From Tritonibacter litoralis (GTDB taxonomy: Bacteria; Pseudomonadota; Alphaproteobacteria; Rhodobacterales; Rhodobacteraceae): a stretch of 64,000 nt of DNA. The position numbers were made by a program, and so were the translations under genes. Position 1 is the first letter of the stretch; the number at the start of each line of letters is the position of its first letter. This document shows positions 1 through 2,942 of the stretch, one piece after another. The stretch lies in contig NZ_WIBF01000005.1 of NCBI RefSeq assembly GCF_009496005.1, forward strand, positions 124,001 through 188,000, read 5' to 3'. The notes beneath the pieces were generated by a model. The model made no database searches and had not been told where the DNA came from. It saw only the letters and a list, made by a program, of their open reading frames with translations.

Positions 1-24
1 ATGACGTCATGAAGGAGCGGGCGC

Positions 25-204
25 ATGGCAAAAGACAAACAAAACAAGTCCTCTGAAGGTGACAAGAAAAACACGTCCCTCCGTCTGGAGCGCAAGACGT
101 TGAAAGCGTTGAAAATTCGCGCAATCGAAGAGGATACCAGTGTTCAAAAGATCATTGAGCAGCTGATCGAAGAGTATCTGGCTGGAACCAAAAAGAAAAA
201 TTGA
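25..204 (+). CDS. Small ribbon-helix-helix (RHH) protein
   Basis: A 59-residue basic protein. A lysine-rich, probably disordered arm (residues 1-17) is followed by a strand-like segment TSLRLERKTLKALKIRA and two helices ending EQLIEEYLAG, the pattern of the MetJ/Arc/CopG RHH fold. An AGGAG ribosome site at 14-18 precedes the ATG. The first 12 bases of the window read ATG ACG TCA TGA and may be the tail of an upstream gene. It starts an apparent operon with CHAD, ParA and CYTH genes. RHH proteins act as DNA-binding partners of ParA ATPases in plasmid partition (the ParG type), so it could be a ParA partner or an autorepressor. The fold call is fairly safe; the role is inferred. Confidence 0.8.
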   Translation: MAKDKQNKSSEGDKKNTSLRLERKTLKALKIRAIEEDTSVQKIIEQLIEEYLAGTKKKN

Positions 205-212
205 GACCAGAA

Positions 213-1727
213 ATGTCGAACCAACTGTTATCATATCCCAAAGCATTGCCACTGTCTGATTGGTCAAACATGGCAAGCGGCCTGTCGGCCCAAGCGGGCG
301 AAGACGTCGAACCCAGCCCGTTTACTGTGCTGGATTGTTTTGATCAGAGCATTCGTCAATCCGGGCGGTTGTTGATTGAAACAGAAGGCGCACTTGTCCT
401 GATGGAGGCGGATGGCCGCTTGTTGCGGCAACCAGCGGCGCGCAAGGGCAATTTTGTTGCGGATCTGGCGGATGGCCCGGTCAAACATCACCTGTCGGAT
501 ATGTCCCCGCTGCGGTGCTTGTTGGATCTGGGACAGGGAGAGCTGGTCAAAGATCAGCTGCGTCTGGTGGATGATGAGGAAAAGACCCATTTGCGCGTGG
601 ATGTCCTGCGGTTTTCCAAAGACAACAAGACCGTAAGCCTGATGGCGCTGACGCCGGTGCGCGGCTATGACAAGGCGCAGAAACAGGTGACCAAAGGTTT
701 GTTGACGGCGGGTGCATCGGTGGCGACACCGGGGCAGATCCAGTCGGTTCTGTTTCCGGATCTTGTGCCATATGTGGCCAAGCCCAAGCTGAGCTTTGCG
801 CCCGAGACCACCGCCGTTGCAGCCGCCAATCAAATCATCGCCGCTTATCTGTCTGTGGCGCGCCAGAACGAGCCGGGCACAATTGCCGATTTTGACACCG
901 AGTTTCTGCATGACTACCGCGTTGCGCTGCGCAAGATCCGATCGGTTCTGAGCCTGTTCAAAGGGGTCTATGGCGATGCGGCAACGGCCGAGTTGAAGCA
1001 GCGCTTCTCGGATCTCATGGCCCCAACCGGGGCGCTGCGGGATCTGGATGTTTATCTGCTGGAGCAGGATTACTATTTCGACATGCTGCCGGAAAACCTC
1101 CACGAGGGGCTGCGACTGATGTTTGAGACCTTTGCCACAGATCGCAAGGATGCGCTGACCACAGTGACCAAGCGGCTGAAAAGCGTCGCCTACAACCGTG
1201 AGATGGCCGAGCTGCAAGTGATGTTTGAGACACCGGGCGAGATTGTGCAGGGCCCACAAGGCGGTCTGACGGTTGGGGATTATGCCAAACGGCTGATCTG
1301 GAAGCGCTATCGCAAAGTCTGCAAAACCGCGGCCAAGATCGACGATCAGACCCCCGATGAAGAGGTGCACGAGCTGCGCATTTCCTGCAAGAAACTGCGG
1401 TATCTGATCGAGTTTTTTGCGCCCCAGTTTGACGGCGCAGAAATCAAGGCGATCCTGAAGCCGTTGAAGAAACTGCAGGATAATCTGGGTCTGTTCAACG
1501 ATTATTCGGTGCAGCAAGAAAGCCTGCAGGCGTTGATTTCCTCCGGGCGGCTCAAAGGGCAGACCGCGCTGAAAGCCGCTCAAAGCATCGGTGCGCTGAT
1601 CTCGATTTTGCACGGGCGGCAGTTGGAAGAACGGGCCCGTGTGGTCCAGAGCTTTGCCGGTTTTGACAGCCAAGGGACCCGCGAGAGGTTCCGCACATTG
1701 TTCCACGAGAAAGGGGCGCAGTCATGA
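213..1727 (+). CDS. CHAD domain protein with degenerate CYTH-like N-terminus
   Basis: A 504-residue protein. From about residue 200 to 500 it is a CHAD domain, a helical bundle with conserved histidines known to bind polyphosphate. The two hallmark helices are visible: HDYRVALRKIRS (H233) and HELRISCKKLRY (H386), followed by LQDNLGLFND. Residues about 35-190 have the spacing of a CYTH/triphosphate-tunnel domain (LRVDVLRF, then a strand and helix) but lack the ExExK signature, so this part is probably non-catalytic. The ATG at 213 is preferred to the TTG at 201 that overlaps the upstream stop. The stop overlaps the parA ATG (ATGA), implying translational coupling. The likely role is binding polyphosphate, possibly as the cargo adaptor of the neighbouring ATPase. 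Confidence 0.85.
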   Translation: MSNQLLSYPKALPLSDWSNMASGLSAQAGEDVEPSPFTVLDCFDQSIRQSGRLLIETEGALVLMEADGRLLRQPAARKGNFVADLADGPVKHHLSDMSPLRCLLDLGQGELVKDQLRLVDDEEKTHLRVDVLRFSKDNKTVSLMALTPVRGYDKAQKQVTKGLLTAGASVATPGQIQSVLFPDLVPYVAKPKLSFAPETTAVAAANQIIAAYLSVARQNEPGTIADFDTEFLHDYRVALRKIRSVLSLFKGVYGDAATAELKQRFSDLMAPTGALRDLDVYLLEQDYYFDMLPENLHEGLRLMFETFATDRKDALTTVTKRLKSVAYNREMAELQVMFETPGEIVQGPQGGLTVGDYAKRLIWKRYRKVCKTAAKIDDQTPDEEVHELRISCKKLRYLIEFFAPQFDGAEIKAILKPLKKLQDNLGLFNDYSVQQESLQALISSGRLKGQTALKAAQSIGALISILHGRQLEERARVVQSFAGFDSQGTRERFRTLFHEKGAQS

Positions 1728-2467
1728 AGATCATAGCCTGTTACAGCAACAAAGGCGGCGTGGGGAAAACCGCCTCGGCCGTGAACCTGGCCTATGCCTA
1801 TGCCCAATCAGGCGCGCGCACCTTGTTGTGTGATCTGGACCCTCAAGGGGCGTCCGGGTTTTACTTCCGGGTGAAACCGTCGAAAAAGCTCAAAGAGGCA
1901 AAGTTCTTTGAGGATGTGGAGCGGTTCACCAAGGCCATTCGCGGTAGCGACTACGAAAACCTCGATATCCTGCCGGCAAACCTGACATTCCGGGATTTCG
2001 ATATCTTCTTGTCGCGGATGAAAAACAGCCGCTCGCGTTTGAAAAAGGCGCTGCAAGGTGTGGATGGCGATTATGACGTGATCCTGCTTGACTGCCCACC
2101 TAACCTGTCGGCGCTTTCTGAGGCGGTGTTTAAGGCGGCCGATCATATTGTGGTGCCGGTGATCCCCTCGACCCTGACGGAACGGACCTTTGCACAGCTG
2201 GTGACCTTCTTTGATGAACAGGGGTTAAAGGCGAAGAAGCTGAAGCCGTTCTTTTCCATGGTGCAGGCGCGCAAGACGCTCCACGGGGATACGATGGCGC
2301 GGATGCGTAAATCCTATAAGGGGCGGTTTATGGACACCCATCTGCCGTTTTCCACCGATGTCGAGAAGATGGGCGTGCACCGGGAGCCTACCATGGCCTT
2401 TGCGGGCAATCGGCCTGCAGGCAAGGCCTATCAGGCCCTGTGGCAGGAACTGGAAAAGCGGACCTGA
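1724..2467 (+). CDS. ParA/MinD-family ATPase
   Basis: A 247-residue ATPase of the ParA/Soj class. The deviant Walker A motif KGGVGKT lies at residues 10-16 with the signature lysine K10. Walker A' is CDLDPQG around residue 40 and the Walker B region is VILLDCPP. There is no N-terminal helix-turn-helix, so it is a small (type Ib-like) ParA that would bind DNA non-specifically as an ATP dimer. It is coupled by a 4-base overlap to the CHAD gene and followed 10 bases later by the CYTH gene. No parB or parS-like element is visible, which argues against chromosome or plasmid partition and for positioning of a cytoplasmic cargo. The enzyme class is certain; the cargo is inferred. Confidence 0.9.
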   Translation: MKIIACYSNKGGVGKTASAVNLAYAYAQSGARTLLCDLDPQGASGFYFRVKPSKKLKEAKFFEDVERFTKAIRGSDYENLDILPANLTFRDFDIFLSRMKNSRSRLKKALQGVDGDYDVILLDCPPNLSALSEAVFKAADHIVVPVIPSTLTERTFAQLVTFFDEQGLKAKKLKPFFSMVQARKTLHGDTMARMRKSYKGRFMDTHLPFSTDVEKMGVHREPTMAFAGNRPAGKAYQALWQELEKRT

Positions 2468-2477
2468 GGAGCGCGTC

Positions 2478-2942
2478 ATGGAAGAGATCGAACGCAAGTT
2501 CCTTGTGCGCGAATTGCCCAATTTGGACGAGGCCAAGCGGACCGAGGTGCGTCAGGGCTATATCACCCATCCAACGGATGCGGTGGAAATGCGACTGCGC
2601 CAGAAAAACGCAACCTTTGTGATGACGTTCAAATCGGGCGAAGGCACGGTGCGCACGGAACGCGAGGCAGAGATTACCCAAGCGCAGTTTGAGACCTTCT
2701 GGCCGGAGACCGAAGGCCGCCGGGTGGAGAAGATCCGCTGGAGCGCCGCGCTGCCGGATGGGCTCATCTTTGAGCTGGACGTGTTTGAAGGGGCCTTGGC
2801 TGGATTGGTCCTGGTCGAGGTGGAGTTTGACACGCTGGCCGCCGCTGAGGCGTTTCAGCCGCCCCATTGGTTTGGGGCCGATGTCACCGATGACAAACGC
2901 TATAAGAACAAGAACATGGCCGTGAACGGCCTGCCGGATTAA
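2478..2942 (+). CDS. CYTH domain protein, probable inorganic triphosphatase
   Basis: A 154-residue single-domain CYTH protein. The ExExK signature is residues 3-7 (EIERK). Later charged strands alternate as expected for the triphosphate-tunnel barrel (EMRLRQK, VMTFKSGEG, REAEIT, LVEVEF, KRYKNKNMA). Characterised bacterial relatives hydrolyse tripolyphosphate or related triphosphates with a divalent metal. A GAGGA ribosome site at 2466-2470 fits the ATG at 2478 rather than upstream in-frame codons. It is the last gene of the RHH-CHAD-ParA operon and converges on cobF, overlapping its stop by 4 bases. Confidence 0.88.
   Translation: MEEIERKFLVRELPNLDEAKRTEVRQGYITHPTDAVEMRLRQKNATFVMTFKSGEGTVRTEREAEITQAQFETFWPETEGRRVEKIRWSAALPDGLIFELDVFEGALAGLVLVEVEFDTLAAAEAFQPPHWFGADVTDDKRYKNKNMAVNGLPD

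Follow-up and report, generated by a model that had tools for sequence, protein, structure and literature searches.

ParA/MinD ATPases position many cargos, and a term search of the main text of PMC10241942, a multi-cargo study from 2023, found no mention of polyphosphate. According to the consulted parts of two reports (PMC6537752, PMC9239181), CHAD proteins bind polyphosphate and localize to its granules. How bacteria space and inherit such granules is an open question, and a 2025 review left energy-driven polyphosphate positioning open. The closest published gene arrangement is a conserved folD-ppk-parA-CHAD cluster of Acidithiobacillus, described in 2019 and 2024 (PMC6416229, PMC10892726); the 2019 paper ties the operon to "cell division functions," and the idea of positioning is absent from the examined parts of both. 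We found no paper in the open-licence PMC literature proposing energy-driven ParA positioning of polyphosphate, which is no proof of absence. In this study, we analyzed a 64,000-nucleotide stretch of the Tritonibacter litoralis genome, here called the window (G000:C45:124001-188000), at the start of which four genes encode a ribbon-helix-helix (RHH) protein, a CHAD protein, a ParA ATPase, and a CYTH enzyme.

The core of this system is the CHAD-ParA pair rather than the quartet, and the pair is a real, conserved, cross-phylum module. Its sequences argue strongly for a link of ParA to polyphosphate and make a positioning function probable. We favor a dedicated ParA/MinD-type positioning system, in which ParA would distribute CHAD-coated polyphosphate over the nucleoid with the CHAD protein as adaptor, and we regard this as moderately likely. 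The findings suggest that a dedicated machine for polyphosphate-granule distribution has so far gone undescribed.

The CHAD and ParA genes form a conserved pair

A family survey of 295 genomes, including that of T. litoralis, yielded ParA orthologues in 19 (58 to 100% identity, the next match dropping to 33%), and CHAD was located immediately upstream in all 19, one of them cut by a contig end. A second survey, of contigs from named genomes, turned up 377 ParA relatives, and the 80 best were fetched, some of these loci coming from the same genomes as the family survey. Here, too, CHAD lies directly upstream of ParA in 80/80 loci (in L139 split in two frames), and because of this the gene order is far beyond chance; the possibility raised in the sequence-only reading of this DNA, that the order might be unique to one genome, is thereby set aside. 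In 78 of the 80, between -7 and +10 bp separate the CHAD stop from the ParA start, and a 4-bp overlap is the commonest arrangement (27/80; starts are HMM [hidden Markov model] based). The other two genes come and go. CYTH follows downstream in 12 of the 19 family holders and in 66 of the 80 fetched loci (broken in L102) and is thus dispensable. Six of the family holders have an intact RHH gene and one a degenerate copy. For the fetched loci the counts are 43 with intact RHH, 7 with a degenerate version, and 30 in which none was found, two of the last being cut by a contig end (classes follow HMM cut-offs, 1e-10 for degenerate and 1e-3 for none, and L112, classed as none, shows a visible remnant).

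Most of the fetched loci are from Rhodobacterales. The others are labeled Neiella, Colwellia, Motiliproteus, Nitrosomonas, an Alcaligenaceae, Desulforhopalus, Desulfopila, a Desulfobulbaceae metagenome-assembled genome (MAG), a Deltaproteobacteria MAG, and Pontiella (Kiritimatiellota), so that beta-, gamma-, and deltaproteobacterial as well as Kiritimatiellota labels are represented; several loci stem from MAGs, and taxon labels may be wrong. Distances among the ParA sequences correlate with those among the CHAD sequences (r = 0.58; 42 loci, one per genus label; 0/2,000 permutations as high), and since distances of other gene pairs correlate as well, this shows only that the genes travel together.

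In an unrooted ParA tree built without outgroup rows and with some long branches, 81 CHAD-linked rows form one clade (support, 100/97), all members of which are CHAD linked. Four further CHAD-ParA pairs (L167, L168, L174, and L177) stand outside it, so one origin with losses and several origins both remain. In the distant pair of L168, a histidine phosphatase gene (PF00300; L168:2271-2783) is found next in place of CYTH.

The CHAD protein carries conserved polyphosphate-binding residues

The CHAD gene (positions 213 to 1727, plus strand, ATG at 213) encodes 504 amino acids, matches PF05235 at 210 bits (cut-off, 25.6; E value, 6.3e-62), and is the sole CHAD gene of the host genome. By Pfam limits, the CHAD domain spans residues 207 to 439 (positions 831 to 1529). 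The polyphosphate-binding residues H233, R236, R240, R276, R396, Y397, and K419 are present; mapped by hand, the first six are identical to H253, R256, R260, R296, R418, and Y419 of CtCHAD, a protein whose complex with polyphosphate has been solved and in which mutation of these residues lowers polyphosphate binding. R236, R240, R276, R396, and Y397 are invariant in 18/18 CHAD sequences, and H233 is kept in at least 90%. These residues indicate that the protein probably grips polyphosphate; it is the probable cargo adaptor. Its structure model has a predicted local distance difference test score of 89.6. In a fold search, the N-terminal half (residues 1 to 188, positions 213 to 776, plus strand) matched the CYTH/TTM fold; the ExExK motif is absent from the alignment, as judged by eye, and this half is probably catalytically dead.

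Directly behind, at positions 1724 to 2467 on the plus strand, lies the gene for a Soj-like ParA/MinD ATPase of 247 amino acids (AAA_31, 131.1 bits; cut-off, 27). The deviant Walker A motif noted in the sequence-only reading is indeed there: the protein starts MKIIACYSNKGGVGKT, and K10 and K15 of NKGGVGKT are invariant in 19 sequences. A predicted structure model has the ParA fold, with Soj proteins as close structural relatives. ParA is the most conserved member of the group, with a mean column identity of 76% versus 57% for CHAD.

The separate CYTH (triphosphate tunnel) enzyme (positions 2478 to 2942, plus strand; 154 amino acids; PF01928, 27.2 bits; cut-off, 23.2) is a probable tri-/polyphosphatase, going by its invariant residues in 12 sequences (E3, E5, K7, R39, R41, K52, R59, E61, K85, R87, E99, D101, E114, and E116); E3/E5/K7 presumably represent its ExExK motif. 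Nameable neighbor clusters common to at least four genus labels are CYTH, NUDIX, PPK1, RHH, and an APH/PhoU-like protein, the other common clusters being one recurring protein without a name and otherwise antisense readings or broad mixtures. NUDIX follows directly 3' in at least 14/80 loci, and a PPK1 gene no more than 6 kb away was found in at least 5/80 (one query sequence each; examples were checked with Pfam). The ParA-CHAD-polyphosphate connection made in the sequence-only reading is therefore corroborated by the constant adjacency, the kept binding residues, and the recurrence of CYTH, NUDIX, and PPK1 nearby.

Six plasmid records of Paracoccus carry this ParA, and each of the three that were read has the order RHH-CHAD-ParA-CYTH-NUDIX, one of them adjoining phoU-phoB. 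A second, diverged CYTH gene is present 3' of NUDIX in the Paracoccus clusters L066 (5752-6249), L141, and L142. Four loci encode the APH-kinase protein with weak PhoU similarity no more than 6 kb from the cluster: L098 (1235-3016; the copy checked with Pfam), L125, L079, and L101.

RHH looks like a separable autorepressor

The RHH gene (positions 25 to 204, plus strand) encodes a ribbon-helix-helix DNA-binding protein of 59 amino acids with a short Lys-rich N-terminal tail (RHH_1 PF01402, 23.6 bits; cut-off, 20.5). It had been proposed as the partner of the ATPase, a role that its distribution does not support. Besides being missing or broken in many loci, RHH had no match anywhere in 11 of the 18 ParA-holding genomes searched (fragmentary G220 being left out of the 19), with a degenerate copy in 1 and an intact one in 6; genomes whose locus is without RHH had no second copy detected at another site. 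ParA must consequently work without RHH in many hosts.

The presence of RHH tracks a promoter palindrome, TGACGTCA, and for this reason the protein looks like an autorepressor. Within a 390-bp stretch around the start, the exact palindrome occurs in 40/43 loci with intact RHH (25/25 genus labels; no more than 120 bp from the start in 39), in 3/7 with degenerate RHH, and in 1/28 of the RHH-less loci that have upstream sequence; when 95 other palindromes of identical composition were counted, none was present in more than 3/43 intact-RHH loci. Related genomes are not independent, and a Fisher value overstates the significance of these counts. With one mismatch allowed, matches rise to 43/43 for intact RHH and to 10/28 for RHH-less loci versus about 4 expected at uniform base composition, so some RHH-less loci may keep a decayed box. 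In T. litoralis the palindrome is found at window positions 2 to 9 (no strand), where it overlaps the likely -10 region and is a probable RHH operator; weaker copies are located just upstream, outside the window. By eye, the box often directly follows TGACATCA, about a promoter length past TTGAC-like hexamers, and some one to three such boxes, sometimes in tandem, cover the promoter, which fits an operator better than a centromere array. At three loci from Desulfobulbales, RHH and ppk1 are divergently oriented, with the box between them. Of the earlier statement that neither parB nor parS is present, the first half stands, no ParB being among the four products, while the second has to be qualified by this conserved, perfect palindrome. 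As an obligatory ATPase partner, RHH is weakened by its repeated loss and by the operator pattern, and it is probably not one.

An RHH regulon beyond the operon is a lead only. The sequence ATGACGTCAT occurs at nine places in the host genome, one of them just 5' of a gene for a helix-hairpin-helix, Lys/Ala-rich (AlgP-like) protein; at this locus (L194:1501-2149; G000:C1:40506-41154), the box with a half-copy behind it precedes the gene, whose product has a histone-H1-like tail (AlgP/PhaF-like). No exact box was found before the candidate AlgP-like homologues listed in eight other genomes, two of them with intact RHH, which is a weak absence. One-mismatch matches were seen only in L210 and L211 (intact RHH), over the first codons of the homologues, and by eye an GTATATAC-like palindrome often takes the place of the box in other genomes.

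Genetic context in the window

As described in the sequence-only reading, the four genes are coupled on the same strand, and all four were recovered at the positions given there with Pfam scores above the gathering thresholds. Spacings of 8 bp (RHH/CHAD) and 10 bp (ParA/CYTH) and a 4-bp overlap (CHAD stop/ParA start) make them a tight operon. No listed NCBIfam model reached its cut-off for the four products, the best for ParA being "ParA family partition ATPase" (92.4 versus 180 bits). A same-strand run of genes upstream, which we take to be pqqBCDE-like and whose first gene gave a metallo-beta-lactamase-fold match in a Pfam check, stops 122 bp before RHH, and the genes 3' of CYTH, presumably of cobalamin type, have the opposite orientation; the unit therefore looks self-contained. 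The ppk2 gene noticed at the other end of the window is real (G000:C45:187607-188287, extending past the window edge). As evidence of linkage it was rejected, since it lies about 61 kb from the operon in a genome that has three PPK2 genes and no PPK1 match.

Proposed mechanism and alternative explanations

In the mechanism that we propose, the CHAD protein would coat polyphosphate via its CHAD domain, a step for which the conserved binding residues argue strongly. ATP-bound ParA would dimerize and bind the nucleoid nonspecifically, as Soj proteins do. Since RHH and CYTH are dispensable, the CHAD protein is the only constant candidate for the ParA partner; through its degenerate CYTH half or a surface of the CHAD domain, it may contact ParA and trigger ATP hydrolysis, upon which CHAD-coated granules would move on a ParA gradient and be spread or inherited evenly. 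CYTH and, in some genomes, NUDIX would trim or remodel the polymer or related phosphate compounds, as their families suggest. Where present, RHH would repress the operon from the TGACGTCA operator over the promoter, a role well supported by the sequence pattern. We consider the odds even that this is an ATP-driven machine for segregating polyphosphate granules, widespread and dispersed by horizontal transfer, in which an inactive CYTH domain, fused to CHAD, has become the ParA partner and cargo adaptor. If true, each daughter cell would inherit a store of phosphate and energy. Relative to the sequence-only reading as a whole, the cargo was probably right and the role of RHH probably wrong. The link of a ParA to a polyphosphate-binding protein also provides named genes in culturable marine Ruegeria, Paracoccus, and Salipiger for direct study.

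Several observations weigh against polyphosphate positioning. CHAD was found in 77/295 family genomes and this ParA in 19, so that about three quarters of the CHAD-bearing genomes have no such ParA. Of the 58 CHAD genomes without it, 12 were read, picked for long, high-scoring CHADs. Eleven carry a more distant CHAD subfamily, with no ParA, RHH, or separate CYTH detected in the stretch fetched. Among the CHADs read, a tie to ParA is thus a feature of the ParA-type subfamily and not of the others. In the twelfth genome (L155), a CHAD of the ParA-type subfamily stands with an undamaged CYTH gene, ParA being reduced to a remnant, and in one of the three Paracoccus plasmid copies (L065) ParA is annotated in two frames; the pair can thus decay. 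The loci read are the best 80 of 377 ParA relatives. In a phylum-wide sample, 68/398 genomes had a ParA match at 1e-45, and among 29 loci from it (L165 to L193, L165 repeating the G242 locus) CHAD adjoins ParA in 6, the other 23 having no CHAD in a flank of about 1.5 kb. Distant plasmid ParAs of Halomonas, Pontibacter, and Marinobacter (three loci) likewise have no CHAD nearby. Known ParA partners bear a basic N-terminal stretch, according to the part of the source consulted (PMC12204374); none is evident in the CHAD protein, and the RHH protein, which has one, is often missing. The host genome has no PPK1 match and PPK2 genes only (n = 3), so that granule formation there is putative.

Some of these other ParAs have neighbors of their own. 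A CHAD-less ParA of a neighboring group (L186:939-2226) lies directly 3' of a gene for a helix-hairpin-helix, Lys-rich protein and is perhaps part of another ParA-cargo pair. On the Marinobacter nauticus VT8 plasmid pMAQU02 (L061:1-4747), a related ParA (38% identity) is found near phbB and metabolic genes and is perhaps linked to polyhydroxybutyrate. A group of CHAD-less ParAs from other Pseudomonadota (L183, L184, L187, L188, L190, and L193) has neighbors that we take to be truA/RnfH-like, and the gene 3' of a 33% identical parA in L058 is presumably a parB.

The main rival to positioning is a regulatory ATPase that does not transport: ParA would control the assembly or activity of the CHAD, CYTH, or PPK enzymes, comparable to BcsQ or FleN. 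ParA-family ATPases do also serve as switches without cargo transport, which counts against our reading; on the whole, we hold this explanation to be unlikely.

A type Ib plasmid-partition cassette (ParA, an RHH centromere-binding protein, and its site) that picked up polyphosphate genes would resemble the locus in its ParA-RHH-upstream-repeat layout, in its occurrence on Paracoccus plasmids, and in the sometimes tandem palindrome. We nevertheless judge it very improbable: ParA and CHAD persist at loci from which RHH and its box have disappeared, the boxes are few, the invariant partner of ParA is CHAD, and the locus is located on a 257-kb contig beside genes presumed to be of pqq and cobalamin types.

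Slightly more improbable still is a selfish or mobile phosphate island with ParA serving island maintenance instead of polyphosphate, for although the patchy spread over phyla at 65 to 92% identity implies horizontal transfer, flanking genes vary among genomes, and one copy adjoins an IS256 transposase, no integrase or transfer gene was identified among the recurring neighbors (of which a recurring protein and several clusters of mixed content are unnamed), and PADLOC gave no convincing defense-family match, nothing being hit beyond 37 residues of Walker A.

Comparison with known systems

McdAB carboxysome positioning resembles this locus in that the gene for a ParA-type ATPase accompanies one whose product attaches to a cytosolic organelle. 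McdB is small and disordered, whereas here the cargo would be polyphosphate and the constant neighbor and candidate adaptor is a folded CHAD protein of 504 amino acids; no McdB appeared in the fold-search listings, no search with an McdB model having been made. Soj/Spo0J and ParF/ParG partition share the ParA fold, and ParF/ParG has an RHH partner. The present operon differs in having no ParB beside ParA, a dispensable RHH, and no evident DNA cargo. AlgP of Pseudomonas aeruginosa is likewise a factor, one required for polyphosphate granules to be evenly spaced along the nucleoid, but it is described in the consulted part of the report as a histone H1-like tether without an ATPase (PMC9239181). 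YgiF combines a CYTH-like N terminus with a CHAD domain, and CtCHAD is a CHAD domain with bound polyphosphate; in contrast to these, the N-terminal CYTH fold here is without ExExK, and a separate CYTH enzyme gene lies next to ParA. The Acidithiobacillus cluster comes closest in gene content, with conserved, adjacent genes for ParA and a CYTH-CHAD protein together with ppk1. It differs in its order (folD, ppk, parA, CHAD) and in its interpretation as cAMP signaling or copper resistance, parA being only named in the parts consulted (PMC6416229, PMC10892726).

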